The translations under genes were made by a program, and so were the position numbers. This document shows positions 238-57,499 of a stretch of DNA of 64,000 nt, piece after piece; within the stretch, counting starts at the first letter, position 1, and each line of letters starts with the position of its first letter. The notes under the pieces were generated by a model. It did not search any database and had not been told where the DNA came from. It saw nothing but the letters and a program-made list of their open reading frames with translations. The DNA is from Bacillota bacterium (lineage in GTDB: Bacteria > Bacillota > Negativicutes > Sporomusales > Sporomusaceae): positions 1-64,000 of the forward strand of contig JAGGAB010000004.1 in the NCBI GenBank assembly GCA_017889705.1, read 5' to 3'.

Positions 238-266
238 TTGACAAAAGACATTAGTCCTGGCATAAT
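238..266 (+). promoter_or_regulatory. Sigma-A promoter of the ilv-leu operon
   Basis: The -35 box is TTGACA (238-243), the spacer is 17 nt and the -10 box is CATAAT (261-266). A transcript would start near 273, just before the ykkC-class aptamer. About 500 nt of structured leader RNA then precede ilvN. Confidence 0.85.
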
Positions 267-284
267 GTATACAAAATTACATGT

Positions 285-440
285 TGCGTAAGGAAGTGCG
301 TCTAGGGTTCCGCTGCTTGACAGGTCTGGGCCGAGCGACGCAGAGCGTAGGAGAAGGCTCCTATGTTACACCGTGGGTATAAAAAACTCTGCGGAAAGTT
401 TCTTACTTTATCTGAGAAACCTTCTGTCGGGGTATTTTTG
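285..440 (+). ncRNA. ykkC-class riboswitch, probably ppGpp-sensing (subtype 2a)
   Basis: The conserved ykkC core blocks are visible: TCTAGGGTTCCG at 301-312, CCGAGCGACGC at 331-341 and TTACACCGTGGG at 366-377. GCGTC (298-302) can pair with GACGC (337-341). A second domain is closed by CGCAGAG (339-345) with CTCTGCG (387-393), with TAGGAG/CTCCTA (348-353/358-363) inside it. Nucleotides 381-403 can alternatively pair with 415-437 and run into a U stretch at 435-439, forming a terminator that uses the same 387-393 strand. Ligand binding should therefore favour read-through (an ON switch). Within the ykkC superfamily, subtype 1 senses guanidine, 2a ppGpp and 2b PRPP. The ppGpp type is the one known before branched-chain amino acid genes, so the ligand is inferred from context. 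Confidence 0.8.
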
Positions 441-454
441 TAACCTTTTAGCAA

Positions 455-735
455 CATACTAATCAAAAGCAATGATTGGGAGCAAGGCTTAACATCCTGC
501 CCAGAGAACCGGTGGTTGGTGCGAACCGGTGCAGGGATAAGCTCTACTCGCCCAGGAGCTCATTGTTCAACTGCTTGCTACGCTTGCGTAATAAGCACTA
601 GGCAATAGCGGTGCCGGCCGTTATCCGGTAAGTCATGAGCAAACTCATGCTATAATGAGCCCAAAGTAGGGTGGTACCGCGCATACAAAGCGCCCCTATG
701 GTCAGATACTAATCTGCCATAGGGGCTTTTTATAT
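455..735 (+). ncRNA. T-box leader, leucine-specific (CUC specifier)
   Basis: The T-box core AGGGTGGTACCGCG lies at 668-681. Stem I carries AGAGA followed by an ACCGGT/ACCGGT hairpin. Aligned with the two serine T-boxes in this window, the specifier triplet is CTC at 547-549 (leucine). The antiterminator bulge UGGU matches an ACCA tRNA end, as expected for tRNA-Leu (A73). The terminator stem is 692-726 (GCCCCTATGG...CCATAGGGGC) followed by TTTTT. Uncharged tRNA-Leu should allow transcription into ilvN and the rest of the operon. It lies directly downstream of the riboswitch, so both decisions act in series. Confidence 0.93.
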
Positions 736-778
736 TATTTGCGTGCGGGTACTGAAGTAACGAAAAAGGAGAGGTAAT

Positions 779-2327: not shown

Positions 2328-3872
2328 ATGGAAGCTCGAAAAATTCAGATATTCGACACTACCCTCCGCGATGGCGAGCAAACGCCCGGAGTAAGTCTGC
2401 AAACAGAAGAAAAGGTGGAAATTGCTCTAGCACTCGCCAAACTGCAGGTTGACGTCATTGAAGCCGGGTTTCCGGTTGCCTCGCCTGGTGATTTTGAAGC
2501 TGTGAGCCAAATTGCCGCCAGAGTAAAAGGCCCAATTATCGCGGCTTTGGCCAGAGCTAATGAAAAAGATATAGAAACCGCTTATAAGGCTGTCAGAAAA
2601 GCGGAAAGACCCCGGATACACACCTTTATTGCAACAAGTGACATCCATCTTGAGCATAAGCTTAAACTCACTCGTGAGCAATTGTTAGACCGGGCAGAAT
2701 CGGCTGTGCGCTATGCCAAGAGTTTAGTAAATGATGTTGAGTTTTCGGCGGAGGATGCCTCACGCTCAGACTGGGATTTCTTATGCCAGGTTTATGAACG
2801 GGCAATTGCCGCCGGTGCCAATGTTATCAATGTGCCTGACACGGTTGGTTATACCACGCCTCAGGAATTTGGCGCACTTATCACCTATATTCGTGAACAT
2901 GTGCCCAATATTAATGATGCCGTTATCAGTGTGCATTGTCATGATGATTTAGGTATGGCGGTGGCTAATACCCTGGCAGCCATCGCTGCCGGTGCCGGCC
3001 AAGCCGAGTGTACTATTAATGGGTTAGGAGAACGGGCCGGTAATGCTGCAATGGAAGAACTGGTTATGGCGCTGCAAACCCGCCATGAATATTACCATGC
3101 CATTACCAATATTAATACCAAACAAATTTACCGGACTTCGCGTCTTATCAGTACGTTGACCGGAATTGCCGTACCGCCAAATAAAGCGGTGGTAGGCGAT
3201 AATGCATTTGCCCATGAATCAGGTATTCATCAACATGGCGTGTTGAATAACCCGCTGACCTATGAAATTATGAGCCCTGAGTCGGTCGGGATCAGCCGCA
3301 ATGCTATTGTGCTTGGTAAACATTCCGGGCGGCATGCTTTCGAAGAACGCCTCAAGCATTTGGGCTATGAGCTTGATTCTGACACCATTAATAATCTGTT
3401 TGTCAAGTTTAAAGACTTGGCTGACAGAAAGAAGATGGTATTTGACCGTGATATTGAAGCGTTGATTGTGGAAAAAGCGACAGTGCGGCCGGAATGGTAT
3501 ACGCTTACTTACCATCATGTGGCCAGTGGCAACAACATTCTGGCAACAGCCTCGGTGCAGCTGAGAACAAGCGCCGGAGTAGCTGAAGCCGCCGGCTGCG
3601 GCACTGGCCCGGTCGATGCCGTGTTTAAGGCCATCGAGCAGGCAGTCGGTTTCCCAATTGGTCTTAAAGATTATCAACTGAAAGCAGTCACTGCCGGCGA
3701 AGATGCGCTGGGTGAAGCCACTACCTGGATTGAACGGGACGGCAGAGTCTTTAGCGGGCGGGGACTGGCTATTGATGTGATTGAAGCAAGTGCCAAAGCT
3801 TATGTCAATGCAATTAACAAAATGCTGGCTGTCTGCGGGTTTCCCGCAGTGGAAGAATCAGCAGGGAGGTAA
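2328..3872 (+). CDS. leuA: 2-isopropylmalate synthase
   Basis: Condenses acetyl-CoA with 2-ketoisovalerate, the committed step to leucine. The catalytic TIM barrel begins with [13 protein letters not shown] (about residues 9-21), HCHDDLG (near 203) supplies metal ligands and HESGIHQHG (near 295) follows. The C-terminal part from about residue 360 fits the LeuA allosteric dimer domain that binds leucine, so feedback inhibition is likely. At 514 residues it is full length for the bacterial LeuA type; the dimer domain argues against homocitrate or citramalate synthase but does not exclude it formally. It follows ilvC by 33 nt with a GCGAGG ribosome site, and leuC starts 6 nt after its stop. Confidence 0.96.
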
Positions 3873-3878
3873 TTCATC

Positions 3879-5147
3879 ATGGCTAGACCTATGACTATGA
3901 CCGAAAAAATCTTTGCCGCGCATGCCGGGTTGGCGGAAGTTCAACCTGGACAGCTCATCAAAGCCAAGCTGGATCTGGTGCTGGGGAATGATATCACGGC
4001 ACCGCCGGCTATCCAGGAGTTTGAACAAATCAGCGACAAGGTTTTTGACAAAGATAAAATTGTATTGGTACCAGACCATTTTGCCCCCAATAAAGATATA
4101 AAATCGGCCGAGATGGCCAAAACTATGCGGGAGTTTGCCAGAAAGCAGAATATAACCCACTATTTCGAAGTCGGACGCATGGGCATTGAGCATGTGCTGT
4201 TGCCGGAACAGGGGCTGGTAGCTCCCGGGGAAGTCATTATTGGCGCCGATTCACATACCTGTACTTATGGTGCTGTTGGGGCCTTTGCCACCGGTGTCGG
4301 TTCAACTGATATGGCTTGTGCCATGGCAACAGGCGAAACCTGGTTTAAGGTGCCTGCCAGCATAAAGGTGGAATTGACGGGCAAGCTCTCTAAATGGGTG
4401 TGCGGTAAGGATGTAATCCTAAAGTTGATCGGCATGATCGGGGTGGATGGAGCGCGGTACCAGTCCCTTGAATTTGCCGGGCCGGGTGTAGCCGAGCTTA
4501 CCATGACCGACAGGCTAACTATTTCCAATATGGCCATTGAAGCCGGTGCCAAAAACGGCATTTTCCCGGTAGACAGCATTACCGAAAAATACCTGGCCGG
4601 ACGGGTAAAAAAGGCTTATACAGCAGTGGCTGCCGATCAGGATGCCGAGTATGCAAGAACAGTTACCATCAACTTGTCAGAACTGACACCGGTTGTGGCG
4701 CTGCCACACTTGCCGGAAAATGTCAAGCCTGTCAGTGAAATTGCGCCTACACCCATTAACCAGGTGGTTATTGGTTCTTGTACCAATGGCCGTATTGAGG
4801 ATTTGGCGCAAGCTGCTGCTATTTTTAAAGGCAAACAGGTCCATCAGGATGTCAGAGCCATTATTATTCCTGGCAGTCAGGCCGTATATCTGGAAGCTAT
4901 GAAACTCGGCTATATCGAGACTTTTGTCAACGCCGGAGCTGTTGTTAGCACCCCGACCTGCGGCCCTTGTCTGGGTGGTCATATGGGCATACTGGCAAAC
5001 GGTGAACGGGCGGTGGCTACCACCAACCGAAATTTCCGCGGACGCATGGGGCATGTTGATAGCGAAGTATATCTGGCCGGTCCGGCAGTAGCGGCAGCAA
5101 GTGCGGTTCTCGGACGAATTGCCGGTCCTGAGGAGGTAGTAGCATGA
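3879..5147 (+). CDS. leuC: 3-isopropylmalate dehydratase large subunit
   Basis: This is the large subunit of isopropylmalate isomerase, an aconitase-family 4Fe-4S enzyme that interconverts 2- and 3-isopropylmalate together with LeuD. Visible motifs are [11 protein letters not shown] (about residue 124), the cysteine of VIGSCTNGR (near 300) and the [11 protein letters not shown] pair (near 359-365), which together supply the three cluster cysteines. At 422 residues it belongs to the shorter archaeal/clostridial-type LeuC that works with a separate small LeuD. Its ATG follows AGGGAGG. Its stop overlaps the leuD start by 4 nt (ATGA), so the two subunits are translationally coupled. Confidence 0.96.
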
Positions 5148-5644
5148 GGTTTACCGGAAAAGTATGGCGTTATGGCGATAATGTAGATACTGATGTTATT
5201 ATTCCTGCCAGGTACTTAAATACCGCCAATATGAAAGAACTGGCGGCACATGCAATGGAAGATATTGATCCTACTTTTGCCGGACAGGTTCAGACTGGCG
5301 ATATTATTGTTGCCGGTAAGAACTTTGGCTGTGGCTCGTCACGGGAACACGCGCCCGGCGCACTCAAAGCGGCCGGTGTAGCCTGTGTGGTTGCCGAAAG
5401 CTTTGCCCGGATATTTTACCGCAATGCCATTAACATTGGCCTGCCGCTGATTGAACTAGGCGAAGGCGAAATTAATATCAAGGCCGGTGATACGCTGGCA
5501 GTGGATTTGGCAGCCGGTCAGGCTGAGAATTTGGCTACAGGCGAAACATTTGCGATACCGGCATTGCCTGGATTTATTCAGGATATTGCCCAGGCTGGCG
5601 GCTTGGTTACTTACACACAAGCGCTGCTGGCCAAAAAGAAATAA
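5144..5644 (+). CDS. leuD: 3-isopropylmalate dehydratase small subunit
   Basis: This is the swivelling small subunit of isopropylmalate isomerase and partners LeuC. The family motif [14 protein letters not shown] lies near residues 57-70, and the N-terminal [12 protein letters not shown] motif is clear. The length of 166 residues matches the short LeuD class that pairs with a 420-residue LeuC. It starts with the ATGA overlap at the end of leuC. Downstream, an 88-nt gap with a terminator-like hairpin separates it from leuB, the largest gap inside this operon. Confidence 0.96.
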
Positions 5645-5732: not shown

Positions 5733-6809
5733 ATGAGTAAACATATTGTAGTTATTCCCGGTGACGGCATTGGTGCCGAAATTACGGCAGAAGCCTTGCG
5801 GGTATCGCAGGCGGCAGCCGAGAAATGTGGTTTTAGTTTTACTTATGAAAGCAAGCAGGCAGGGGGAGCCGCCATTGATGCTTATGGTGTACCGCTGCCT
5901 GAAGATACAATAGAAGCTTGCCGTAAGGCTGACGGCGTGCTCTTAGGAGCGGTCGGCGGTCCGAAGTGGGATAATGTTGCGCCTGAATTGAGAGCAGAAA
6001 AAGCTATTTTGGGTCTGCGCAAGACGCTAGGGTTATATGCCAATCTGCGCCCAATTAAAGTTTTCCCGGCGCTGGCTGCTCAGTCGCCGCTCAAACCGGA
6101 GCTTGTCAGAGATGTCGATATTTTAATTGTCCGCGAACTCAATGGCGGCATTTATTATGGCGACCGCCAGGAGGCTGTCACTGTTAAAGGTATTGAACAG
6201 GCCTGGGACAAAGAAGGGTATAGCCGTCCTGAAATCGAACGCATTGTACGTCTGGCCTGCCGCAGCGCGATTGGCCGTAAAGGCCGGGTAACCTCGGTTG
6301 ATAAAGCGAATGTGTTGGCAACTTCCCGGTTATGGCGCAAGGTGGCGGCAGAAGTGGCTGTTGATTTTGCCCAAGTGGAAATGAGTCACATGTATGTTGA
6401 TAACTGTGCGATGCAGCTTGTGCTCAATCCCGGCAGTTTTGACGTACTTGTTACCGGCAATCTGTTTGGCGATATTTTAAGTGACGAAGCTGCGGTATTA
6501 TCTGGTTCGATCGGCCTGTTGCCATCAGCCAGCCTGGGGGATGGCACCGGACTGTATGAACCAATTCACGGTTCGGCACCTGATATTGCCGGACAAGGGC
6601 TGGCAAATCCTTTAGGAACCATTTTATCGGCGGCTATGATGTTTAGATTCTCGTTAGGCAATGAAAAAGTCGCCGCTATGATTGAAGCGGCAGTTGATCA
6701 GGTACTATCTGACGGCTATCGTACAGCCGATATTTATCAACAAGGACAAGGCTTAACCAAAGTTTCTACGGAAGAAATGGGGCAGCAAGTTATTAATCGG
6801 TTGAAGTGA
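5733..6809 (+). CDS. leuB: 3-isopropylmalate dehydrogenase
   Basis: Oxidatively decarboxylates 3-isopropylmalate with NAD+ to 2-ketoisocaproate, the last specific step of leucine synthesis before transamination. It opens with the isocitrate/isopropylmalate dehydrogenase signature VIPGDGIGAEI (residues 6-16). It contains LRKTLGLYANLRP and RELNGGIYYG in substrate-binding positions, and the signature around NLFGDILSDEAAVLSGSIG near residues 243-261. At 358 residues it is full length. The ATG at 5733 follows TAGGAGG. The gene sits after the intra-operon hairpin, and ilvB starts 10 nt after its stop. Confidence 0.97.
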   Translation: MSKHIVVIPGDGIGAEITAEALRVSQAAAEKCGFSFTYESKQAGGAAIDAYGVPLPEDTIEACRKADGVLLGAVGGPKWDNVAPELRAEKAILGLRKTLGLYANLRPIKVFPALAAQSPLKPELVRDVDILIVRELNGGIYYGDRQEAVTVKGIEQAWDKEGYSRPEIERIVRLACRSAIGRKGRVTSVDKANVLATSRLWRKVAAEVAVDFAQVEMSHMYVDNCAMQLVLNPGSFDVLVTGNLFGDILSDEAAVLSGSIGLLPSASLGDGTGLYEPIHGSAPDIAGQGLANPLGTILSAAMMFRFSLGNEKVAAMIEAAVDQVLSDGYRTADIYQQGQGLTKVSTEEMGQQVINRLK

Positions 6810-6819
6810 GGTGTAAGCT

Positions 6820-8490
6820 ATGCTCATGACAGGAGCACAAGCTATTGTTGCTTCTCTTGTTAAAGAGGGTGTAGACACGGTATTTGGGTACCCGGGTGGA
6901 ACAATCCTGCCATTGTTTGACGCGCTATGCGGTTCACCTGTGCGCCATGTGCTGACCGTGCATGAGCAGGGGGCCGCGCATGCTGCCGATGGTTATGCCA
7001 GAGCAAGCGGACGGGTAGGAGTGTGTATTGCCACCTCAGGTCCGGGAGCAACTAACCTGGTTACCGGGCTGGCTGCTGCCTTTATGGATTCTGTTCCCGT
7101 TGTGGCCATTACCGGTCAGGTGCAGACAACCTTAATTGGTCGCGATGCCTTTCAGGAGATCGATATTACCGGCATAACCATGCCGATTACCAAGCATAAT
7201 TTTTTGGTTAAGGATATCAGCAAATTGCCGGAAACTCTTTGGCGGGCCTTCAATATTGCCCGGTCAGGACGGCCTGGGCCGGTGCTTGTTGATATACCGC
7301 GCGATGTGCAATCCCAAAAACATGATTTTACCGATATTGAGGCTGTGTATTCGCGTTCTACGCTTGTCAGGCAGTCACCAGATCTCCCCGATTTAATCAA
7401 AAAGGCGGCTGAGGCCATCAGTGCCGCCAAACGGCCGGCCATTATCGCCGGTGGCGGCTGTATCAGCGCCAATGCCGGTGCGGCGCTAACCAGATTTGTT
7501 GAACAATGCAATTTGCCGGTGGTAACCACTTTGATGGGAATTGGGGCATTTCCCGGTGGCCATGATAAGCTTCTGGGCATGACCGGCCTGCATGGTCTTA
7601 AAGCAGCCAATCGTGCGGTATATGAAGCCGATGTGCTTATTGTAACCGGCAGTCGGTTTAATGACCGGGTGACAGGTGACCGTACCAGCTATGCCGCCGG
7701 TAAAACCATTATCCATATTGATATTGATCCGGCTGAGGTGCACAAGAATGTAGATGCCGCAGTGCCGCTAGTTGGTGAGATGAATATGATTCTGCAGGAA
7801 TTGACCGAGGCAGTTAACCCGGGAGATTTGTCTTCCTGGTGGTCTACCATCTGGCAGTGGCAGCAGGAATATGATGCTCCAATTGCTGATGATATGCTGA
7901 CTGCGCCGCTGGTTATGCAGGAATTAAACCGGCAAATTGGCGATCAAGACGTAATCTATGTTACCGATGTCGGTCAGCACCAGATGTGGGCGGCACAGCA
8001 TTTATCAGTAAAAACCCCGCGCGGCTTTTTATCATCCGGCGGTCTTGGCGCCATGGGATTTGGCTTGCCGGCAGCTTTAGGTGCGCAGCTTGCCAGGCCG
8101 GATAAGCGGGTAATTCATATTGTCGGTGACGGTGGACTCAAAATGACAGGCTGTGAGCTGTATACCATTTCAGCCGAACAGTTGCCGGTTATCTCGATTG
8201 TCATCAATAATAAAAGTTTGGGTATGGTCAGACAATTGCAGCATTGCTTTTTTGAAAAGCGGTATGCCAATTCGCTGCTGCCTATGCCGATGGATTTTTC
8301 TGCTTTTGCTGCCGCTTTTGGCATTCCGGCGGCTGTGACCAATACTCCTGCTGAGTTTGCCGAGGCATTAACTGCCGCCTGGCAGCGGCAAGGGCCGGGA
8401 CTTATTGTTGCCAATATTGCTACTGATGATTTGGTGACACCCATGATTGCTCCTGGCGGAGCCATGGATGAGTATGTGGTTATCGACTAA
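6820..8490 (+). CDS. ilvB: Acetolactate synthase large (catalytic) subunit
   Basis: This ThDP- and FAD-dependent enzyme forms acetolactate from two pyruvates or acetohydroxybutyrate from pyruvate and 2-ketobutyrate. The N-terminal ThDP domain carries FGYPGGTILPLFDAL and the catalytic glutamate E49 in VHEQGAAHAADGYAR. A central FAD-binding domain follows, and the C-terminal ThDP motif starts at GDGGLKMTG (near residue 437) and ends at NNKSLGM. At 556 residues it is typical. It closes the operon, 5.5 kb from its small subunit ilvN; in most operons ilvB and ilvN are adjacent. A catabolic AlsS is less likely given the BCAA context and the presence of ilvN. A strong terminator follows. Confidence 0.93.
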   Translation: MLMTGAQAIVASLVKEGVDTVFGYPGGTILPLFDALCGSPVRHVLTVHEQGAAHAADGYARASGRVGVCIATSGPGATNLVTGLAAAFMDSVPVVAITGQVQTTLIGRDAFQEIDITGITMPITKHNFLVKDISKLPETLWRAFNIARSGRPGPVLVDIPRDVQSQKHDFTDIEAVYSRSTLVRQSPDLPDLIKKAAEAISAAKRPAIIAGGGCISANAGAALTRFVEQCNLPVVTTLMGIGAFPGGHDKLLGMTGLHGLKAANRAVYEADVLIVTGSRFNDRVTGDRTSYAAGKTIIHIDIDPAEVHKNVDAAVPLVGEMNMILQELTEAVNPGDLSSWWSTIWQWQQEYDAPIADDMLTAPLVMQELNRQIGDQDVIYVTDVGQHQMWAAQHLSVKTPRGFLSSGGLGAMGFGLPAALGAQLARPDKRVIHIVGDGGLKMTGCELYTISAEQLPVISIVINNKSLGMVRQLQHCFFEKRYANSLLPMPMDFSAFAAAFGIPAAVTNTPAEFAEALTAAWQRQGPGLIVANIATDDLVTPMIAPGGAMDEYVVID

Positions 8491-8601: not shown

Positions 8602-9531
8602 ATGAGTGATATTGTTGTCAGGGCAGAAAGCCTTGGTAAAACATATGGTGACTTTCGGGCGCTTAAAGGCATTTCTTTTAGCATCAAAGCCGGACAATGC
8701 TTTGGCTTTTTGGGACATAATGGTGCAGGCAAGACTACGACCATGCGTATGATGTATGGCATGTCTACTGTTGATGAGGGCAAGTTATGGCTGTTTGACC
8801 AGTCTTTCCGCTTAACCCCGCCGGCTGTAAAGGCTCGGCTGGGGGTGGTGCCGCAGGAAGATAATCTTGATGATGACTTAACCGTTATTGAGAATCTGGA
8901 AGTGTATGGCCTGATTTATGGCTTGCCAAGGGGTGAGTCACAGCAGCGGGGTAAAGAATTGCTGGCGTTTATGGGGCTGGAGGATAAAGAACATAATTCG
9001 ATTGAGAGCTTGTCAGGCGGACTCAAACGACGGCTGGTGATTGCCAGAGCGCTGATGAATGCGCCCGATATTGTTATTTTGGATGAACCTACTACCGGTC
9101 TTGATCCGCAAGCAAGGCATTTGGTCTGGCAAAAGCTGCGCAGTCTCAAAGCAGAAGGGGTAACGCTGGTATTAACCACCCATTACATGGAAGAGGCTGT
9201 ACAGCTATGTGACAGTCTGGTAGTTATGCATGAAGGCAATATTTTGGCTGAGGGCAGCCCGCAGCACTTAATCGAGACATATGTGCGTCCTTATGTTGTT
9301 GAAGTGCATTTGCCATTATCGCAAGTACCGGAGAATCTGACAGATAAGGTAGCAAATTGGGGCGGCGAAGTAACTCAGGTGCTTGACAGCGTATTTCTTT
9401 ATGCAGATGATGGCGAGAAACTATGGGATAATCTTGATTGTTGGGGACTGCCCAAACAGGCTTGCTTACTGCGGGCAGCCAATCTGGAAGATGTGTTTTT
9501 AAAACTTACCGGCATGGGGGAAGAAGCGTAA
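8602..9531 (+). CDS. ABC-2 type exporter, ATP-binding subunit (NodI-like)
   Basis: This is the nucleotide-binding subunit of an ABC exporter. Walker A GHNGAGKTT lies near residues 38-46, the signature LSGGLKRRL near 136-144 and Walker B VILDEPTTGLDP follows near 155-166, with the switch histidine in LTTHYMEEA. After the ATPase core comes a 90-residue C-terminal extension like that of NodI/CcmA/DrrA proteins. The next gene starts directly after its stop (0 nt apart) and encodes a NodJ-like permease, so the two form one transporter. The substrate is unknown; NodI/NodJ homologues outside rhizobia are usually uncharacterised efflux systems. Confidence 0.9.
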   Translation: MSDIVVRAESLGKTYGDFRALKGISFSIKAGQCFGFLGHNGAGKTTTMRMMYGMSTVDEGKLWLFDQSFRLTPPAVKARLGVVPQEDNLDDDLTVIENLEVYGLIYGLPRGESQQRGKELLAFMGLEDKEHNSIESLSGGLKRRLVIARALMNAPDIVILDEPTTGLDPQARHLVWQKLRSLKAEGVTLVLTTHYMEEAVQLCDSLVVMHEGNILAEGSPQHLIETYVRPYVVEVHLPLSQVPENLTDKVANWGGEVTQVLDSVFLYADDGEKLWDNLDCWGLPKQACLLRAANLEDVFLKLTGMGEEA

Positions 9532-10281
9532 ATGGAAGCTATGCGTATTTTTGCCCGCCATATGGCGGTATTTCGTAAGATTTGGTTTACTAATATTATG
9601 TTTAACTTTATTGAACCGCTGCTGTACTTAACAGCTATGGGTTACGGCCTGGGAACCTTTGTGCAGGATATGGAGGGCATGACCTATCTTCAGTATATTG
9701 CGCCAGGAATGGTGGCTTCCTCAGCTATGTTTGCTGCCTCTTTTGAGTGTACGTATGGCAGCTTTCTCAGGCTGCATTATCAAAAGACCTACCAGGCCAT
9801 GCTGGCCGGTCCGGTTACCGTTCGCGATATTGTAGCAGGCGATATTCTGTATGCCACTTTTAAAAGCATGCTGTTTGGGCTGGTCATATTAGTGGTAATC
9901 AGTGTCCTGGGGCAGGTACAGTCCTGGTGGGCAGTTGCCATTCCGCTGTTTCTGGTTATTCCTGGGCTGGCGTTTTCGCTGTTGGCCATTTGTTATACAG
10001 GAATGGTCGCCAATATCGATAATTTTAATTATTATATTACCTTGTTCTTAACGCCGGCCTACCTTTTCTCCGGCGTGTTTTTCCCGATTAATTCCATGCC
10101 TGGCTGGGCGCAGGCGGTCGTCTGGATTAATCCTATTTTCCACAGTGTGGAAATCTGCCGGGCTTTGGCACTAGGAAATATAAATCCCGGCCTGCTGGTG
10201 CATGCCGGGGTGCTTATGGTACTTGCTGCTCTATTAATGCCGGTAGCTGTGCGACTCTTGACTAAACGGCTTATTGTATAA
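9532..10281 (+). CDS. ABC-2 type exporter, permease subunit (NodJ-like)
   Basis: This 249-residue integral membrane protein has about six hydrophobic segments and fits the ABC-2 transporter family, specifically the NodJ branch. Family-like stretches are FNFIEPLLYLTAMGYGLG near the N-terminus and LTPAYLFSGVFFPINSMP near residues 170-187. Its start codon follows the stop of the ATPase gene with no gap, so the two are co-translated. The cargo cannot be read from sequence. A GC-rich hairpin (CCCCGG/CCGGGG, 10299-10314) follows its stop. Confidence 0.9.
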   Translation: MEAMRIFARHMAVFRKIWFTNIMFNFIEPLLYLTAMGYGLGTFVQDMEGMTYLQYIAPGMVASSAMFAASFECTYGSFLRLHYQKTYQAMLAGPVTVRDIVAGDILYATFKSMLFGLVILVVISVLGQVQSWWAVAIPLFLVIPGLAFSLLAICYTGMVANIDNFNYYITLFLTPAYLFSGVFFPINSMPGWAQAVVWINPIFHSVEICRALALGNINPGLLVHAGVLMVLAALLMPVAVRLLTKRLIV

Positions 10282-57402: not shown

Positions 57403-57499
57403 GGGAGCGGATGGGGCCTGGTGGCTCCTGCAGTCTTCAAAACTGTTCGTTGGGCGCTAACCCGTCCATGGTGGGTTCGATTCCTACACGCTCCCGCCA
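57403..57499 (+). tRNA. selC: tRNA-Sec (anticodon UCA)
   Basis: A 97-nt tRNA with an 8-nt acceptor strand (GGGAGCGG), a D arm GGGCC...GGCTCC, anticodon loop CTTCAAA giving UCA, a long variable arm and a T arm with GGTTCGATTCC, ending in encoded GCCA (57496-57499). These are the hallmarks of bacterial selenocysteine tRNA. In the straightforward folding the eighth acceptor position is a G-A mismatch, which is unusual. The cell presumably makes selenoproteins; selA, selB and selD are not in this window. A terminator follows. Confidence 0.95.

Follow-up and report, generated by a model that had tools for sequence, protein, structure and literature searches.

The window analyzed here covers the first 64 kb of contig C128, from a genome of 5.0 Mb in 154 contigs, and near its start lies an ilv-leu operon for branched-chain amino acids (BCAA) whose leader carries two RNA elements in series. 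We confirm that positions 238-778 hold a promoter and, after it, a complete ykkC-type aptamer overlapped by its terminator and a complete T-box, and that the operon starts after them; the leader elements and the operon genes are all on the + strand. Very probably the leader combines an aptamer for guanosine tetraphosphate (ppGpp) with a leucine T-box, as two attenuators in series before ilvN. The genus is taken as Sporomusa because the IlvN relatives at 94-95% identity (six loci) come mostly from Sporomusa species: Sporomusa acidovorans, S. ovata, S. malonica, S. silvacetica, Sporomusa sp. KB1, and a Bacillota-labelled metagenome-assembled genome (MAG). The tandem is present in the window and all six of these aligned relatives, and by its T-box signature it precedes ilvN in nine of nine Sporomusa genomes.

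Transcription would begin near 272-274, downstream of a sigma-70-type promoter (238-266) made of TTGACA (238-243), a 17-nt spacer and CATAAT (261-266), with TG ahead of the -10. This is the sole + strand promoter-like site reported in 1-1400. Two such sites on both strands, against 2.0 in shuffled sequence, is chance level, so the promoter is argued for by its 11/12 match and by its conservation, being clear in six of the seven aligned leaders, the window's counted among them, with a weaker version in the MAG. The first RNA element is a ykkC subtype 2a-like, predicted ppGpp aptamer (286-414), recognized by an Rfam match, folds, a subtype model and covariation; the fold of 283-412 is a four-way junction that includes the add-on helix P0 (288-295/399-406). 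Across 20 relatives from other genera, 96.9% of aptamer cells are paired, 15 of 34 aptamer pairs are changed on both sides (7.5 in shuffles), as are 4 of 7 P0 pairs, and one pocket-helix pair alternates between A-U (12), G-C (7) and G-U (1). The structure had been predicted from the same 20-sequence alignment that was used for this test; control structures slid along it paired only 32-44% of cells.

The aptamer shares sequence with its own terminator. The preliminary description had proposed a complete ykkC core with a switching terminator that reuses strand 387-393, and both parts hold: the core spans 291-396, and terminator 1 (386-440; stem 386-433, U-rich tail 434-440) takes up the pocket-helix 3' strand CUCUGCGG (387-394, with UG at 390-391), together with the P0 3' strand 399-406. 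In the predicted folds, terminator 1 is therefore exclusive with both P0 and the pocket helix. Its stem has a folding energy of -20.0 kcal/mol (z -4.5), with 0 of 200 shuffles as stable, and the two folds of 283-441 are mutually exclusive, the terminator form at -54.1 and the aptamer form at -47.3. A consensus terminator scan reported neither this terminator nor terminator 2. By automatic calls an overlapping terminator with z of -3.9 or lower is found in 25 of 29 tandem loci, and in the 28 loci called, the 3'-strand base of the alternating pocket-helix pair is paired within the terminator as U-A (13), C-G (7) or U-G (7) and is unpaired in one. The four remaining loci differ among themselves. 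L112 received no automatic call, yet a long hairpin with a short U tract is visible; an early T run misled the rule at two loci, L047 (z -1.0) and L135 (z +2.0), whose 75-nt folds show a hairpin; L050 has z -3.0 with an insertion in the loop, and its 75-nt fold lacks such a hairpin. At gathering score, Rfam gave the T-box alone in L050. In the seven-sequence alignment, the terminator 1 loop of the MAG leader carries an insertion around which the stem arms are kept. A repeat of about 59 bp occupies the terminator 1 loop of one relative (L050/L137), again with stem arms kept, and in L142 (S. silvacetica) it is located after terminator 2. It has from 1 to at least 56 matches per Sporomusa genome, at least 14 of them in the window's genome, with some copies arranged head to tail at a spacing of about 91 bp; the window itself shares only a 13-bp match with it.

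The second element is a T-box leader that runs from Stem I to the antiterminator (463-700) and matches RF00230 with 97.1 bits (gathering score 93). Its specifier codon, placed by Rfam alignment columns and folds, is CUC (Leu) at 547-549, followed by G550 and CCC, and the genome encodes a tRNA-Leu(GAG) (in L212) that matches both the specifier and the operon. Judged by eye this tRNA ends in ACCA, which fits the UGGU bulge within the T-box sequence AGGGUGGUACCGCG (668-681) of the antiterminator (666-699). The specifier and its matching tRNA support the identification as a leucine T-box. Terminator 2 (691-731) has its stem at about 691-726 and a U tract to 731; the 664-735 fold that contains it has -32.4 kcal/mol (z -4.9), with 0 of 200 shuffles as stable. 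The 455-735 folds are again exclusive, with the terminator form at -107.5 and the antiterminator form at -97.5. The full tRNA-Leu T-box with a second terminator that had been claimed is thus borne out. The T-box model matched all 26 tandem loci tested, window included, out of 29; 13 of the 26 matches reach gathering score, and the rest have E of 1.8e-13 or lower. In B. subtilis, too, a T-box with a CUC specifier stands ahead of the ilv-leu operon; that leader is not known to have an upstream ppGpp riboswitch.

What might the first element sense? The only riboswitch family in Rfam to match it is guanidine-I (RF00442; 291-396, E 1.5e-6 in a 2-kb search), and three local subtype models were built because Rfam returned that family alone: R1 from BCAA-linked tandem aptamers (20 loci of other genera, without Sporomusa sequences), R2 from purine-permease-linked aptamers resembling those for phosphoribosyl pyrophosphate (PRPP; 16 loci), and R3 from guanidine-I aptamers (19 loci). 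The window aptamer scores 113.7 bits with R1, 61.0 with R2 and 35.1 with R3, so the best score fell to neither of the two subtypes named beforehand as refuting, and the earlier preference for the ppGpp type over the guanidine and PRPP types is upheld. Four further ykkC elements detected in this genome served as controls: the guanidine-type L001 scores best with R3 (104.6 bits), L003 with R2 (134.1 bits), and L002 and L004 with R1 (89.0 and 82.2 bits). A guanidine-I riboswitch here has a negligible probability in our estimate, since the sole Rfam match, at 46.1 bits, lies under the gathering score of 63, the local guanidine-I score falls far below that of L001, the guanidine model has no counterpart of the aptamer's P0 helix, and position 49 is C instead of A. 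In the cited passages, position 49 is a pyrimidine in the ppGpp type and A in guanidine-I, and subtype 2 ykkC RNAs add helix P0 from the aptamer ends (PMC6031431), C75/C69 pairs with the ligand guanine (PMC6031431, PMC10687018), and G96 is present in PRPP RNAs and absent or replaced by another base in ppGpp RNAs (PMC6031431, PMC10687018). The window has C336 at position 49 and C369, within ACAC 368-371, as the ligand-pairing C, both placed by motif, and G96 is not present: UG (390-391) stands between CUC and CGG, 1 nt shorter than in purine-permease-linked aptamers. That the element is a PRPP sensor of subtype 2b is very unlikely. The 2b-like model does match, but 52.7 bits below the BCAA-linked one, the operon downstream is not purine-related, and the window lacks the extra G: among 117 loci picked from the matches listed, most guanidine-type and some subtype-2 rows being omitted, the CYC-to-CGG segment is UG in 31 of 31 IlvN-, LeuA- or LivK-linked aptamers, and in all 25 that are linked to purine permeases, the set presumed to sense PRPP, it has 3 nt with G at the center. 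A simple length rule is imperfect outside the BCAA group: the segment is UGG in 4 of 28 amidotransferase-like-linked aptamers and UAG in 8 of 10 PaaK-linked ones. 'Amidotransferase-like' is our own reading of the sequence, because Pfam and NCBIfam gave no match for a 330-residue piece of the protein encoded behind L002. The guanidine-I and PRPP subtypes are rejected on scores and marker bases, and the marker bases, P0, the overlapping terminator and the gene context support a fit to the published subtype 2a (ppGpp).

We infer from the published families what the two elements bind, that binding turns expression ON, and how the gate combines them. In the mechanism we propose, one transcript from near 273, a start placed from the sequence, would meet two independent attenuators before ilvN, and the two terminators are indeed separate and in series. 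Bound ppGpp would hold P0 and the pocket helix together, keeping strand 386-405 from terminator 1; without it, terminator 1 would form and transcription would end near 435-440. Uncharged tRNA-Leu(GAG) would pair with the CUC specifier and, through ACCA, with the UGGU bulge, so that the antiterminator (666-699) is held in place, whereas charged tRNA would let terminator 2 form. Because these would be two ON switches in series, ppGpp and uncharged tRNA-Leu would both be needed for full expression, approximating an AND gate. Alternatively there is no AND gate, if one of the terminators is leaky or an unseen start between the elements allows the T-box to work alone. We regard this as unlikely: no + strand promoter-like site was reported between the two elements, and terminator 1 is strong and conserved, its stem arms being kept in the MAG even around the loop insertion. 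The published gate logic is itself a prediction (PMC9481103, PMC6031431), which leaves room for this alternative, and so does the distribution of the T-box. Among 41 top-scoring ppGpp-type loci (every match of at least 104 bits among the matches listed, the next one having 99.7), a T-box signature occurs within 900 nt downstream in 31 and none was found in 10, so the design can do without the second switch. This last point also weighs against the tandem ppGpp/T-box model itself, as do three others: the ligand-free fold of 283-412 is modest (z -1.58, 13 of 200 shuffles as good), the antiterminator by itself has only -11.5 kcal/mol (z -1.21, 20 of 200 shuffles as stable), and R1, trained on BCAA-linked leaders, indicates kinship to them and not the ligand. 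The series gate may act beneath a protein layer, because the genome has a match to RelA/SpoT (one, in a 745-aa frame) and a match to CodY, described as a repressor protein with a requirement for GTP and isoleucine (PMC5912903). An expectation that the genus lacks CodY was rejected, all nine Sporomusa genomes having a match.

The ten loci without a detected T-box comprise five ilv leaders of family f3 (L079, L105, L111, L147, L150), two ilv leaders of other families (L174, L175), and three loci elsewhere (L086, L087, L118). Absence was judged by the 900-nt signature; L079, L086 (whose sequence ends at 449 bases), L087, L105, L111 and L118 also lack an Rfam match at gathering score, and for L147, L150, L174 and L175 the signature was the sole test. 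The two switches appear separable in evolution, since in f3 ppGpp-type aptamers precede ilvN with no T-box found. A class-wide search with R1 gave a match of any subtype in 59 of 200 genomes. Where the tandem occurs, its specifier varies: CUC in 20 of the 31 tandems, valine-type GUC in eight (L034, L070, L081, L090, L095, L102, L113, L135), isoleucine-type AUC in two (L112, L117), and UUC in one, the different codons occupying the same model columns in the Rfam alignments for CUC, GUC and AUC. The UUC is the apparent specifier of L082, a tandem before a LivK-like gene, and may be a Phe or a shifted Leu codon. All seven leuA leaders have CUC. The 18 ilvN leaders divide into 10 with CUC, nine of these from Sporomusa, and 8 with GUC, which come from seven families, L070 belonging to the family of the window itself. 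Leucine-type ilv operons L057, L060, L064 and L072 continue with leuA as third gene, like the window, and valine-type ones with ilvB (L090, L095, L113, L135), with the exception of L081, which has leuA; L070 has neither in about 2.6 kb, and for L034 and L102 the available stretch ends too early to decide. We think it probable that the ppGpp switch serves as a fixed module and that the T-box paired with it has changed its tuning among Leu, Val and Ile, broadly following operon content. For the reverse order, a search by T-box signature upstream (to 800 nt or the locus end, a reach of about 600 nt for most of 80 stretches) gave one match in 117 loci, at the guanidine-type L001, which precedes two genes reading as small multidrug-resistance exporters.

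The tandem design is already in print, so that the finding is sound and not new in kind, and the statement of the preliminary description that ppGpp-type ykkC RNAs occur with T-boxes near BCAA genes agrees with published tandems (PMC9481103, PMC5912903). Table 2 of PMC9481103 gives 15 cases of a ppGpp riboswitch followed by T-box-Leu and 16 in reversed order, with AND gates predicted; the pairing is drawn in Fig. 6C of PMC5912903, and a ppGpp/T-box tandem is mentioned in PMC7583486. According to PMC6031431, the elements of such a tandem retain separate expression platforms, and proof in vivo is still called for. The published ppGpp/T-box-Leu tandems resemble the window in both elements, their order, the separate terminators and the predicted AND gate, and in the cited parts of PMC9481103 and PMC5912903 we see no essential difference. 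The main text of PMC9481103, supplements aside, makes no mention of Sporomusa, and no paper in the literature searched has both 'ppGpp riboswitch' and 'Sporomusa'. Pairings with Val and Ile T-boxes may be unreported, because the PMC9481103 table, supplements aside, pairs ppGpp only with T-box-Leu. A similar competition is described for the ppGpp riboswitch from Clostridiales bacterium oral taxon 876: there, a terminator with a purine tract that pairs with the U tract competes with the end helix, as in the window fold; unlike the window, that construct comes with no mention of a T-box in the cited portion of PMC10687018. The PRPP riboswitch (ykkC 2b) has the same fold and P0, with an extra conserved G (PMC6031431), and the guanine-PRPP tandem differs in having one terminator common to both aptamers and IMPLY logic (PMC5912903).

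The operon itself reads ilvN-ilvC-leuA-leuC-leuD-leuB-ilvB by domain family scan, with some names given by context. The first gene, ilvN (779-1321; PF22629, PF10369), encodes the acetolactate synthase small subunit and is followed by ilvC, ketol-acid reductoisomerase (1302-2294; PF07991, PF01450), whose ATG at 1302 was picked by eye, the frame scanned being 1299-2291, and by leuA, 2-isopropylmalate synthase (2328-3872; PF00682, PF08502). Named by context are leuC (3879-5147; aconitase-family large subunit, PF00330), leuD (5144-5644; aconitase C-terminal family, PF00694), leuB (5733-6809; isocitrate/isopropylmalate dehydrogenase family, PF00180) and ilvB (6820-8490; acetolactate synthase large subunit, a thiamine pyrophosphate enzyme, PF02775, PF00205, PF02776). 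Two frames 3' of ilvB on the same strand (8602-10281) read as a putative ABC transporter ATPase and permease; published genes of ykkC subtype 2a include natA-type transporters (PMC5912903). A tRNA-Sec gene lies at 57403-57499. Elsewhere among the loci, a second subtype-2 ykkC aptamer precedes an AMP-binding, PaaK-like gene (L004, L051, L058, L061, L062, L063, L065, L066), and in seven Sporomusa genomes the ilv aptamer follows it 2-3 kb downstream. L067, L068 and L069 are divergent ykkC elements; a HAD-type hydrolase-like gene stands behind L067 and L069, two elements that may represent the hydrolase-linked subtype 2c of the literature, and at L068 no HAD-type match was seen.

The window offers a clean natural case for measuring the predicted ppGpp/T-box AND gate. 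Its relatives provide a ready series before homologous ilv genes, with the ppGpp-type switch alone, with an added Leu T-box, or with an added Val T-box, and with this series the contribution of the second sensor can be assessed in genomes where CodY is encoded as well. If the partner T-box has indeed been retuned around a constant ppGpp module, these leaders would form a family of starvation-plus-amino-acid gates, one for each branched-chain amino acid.
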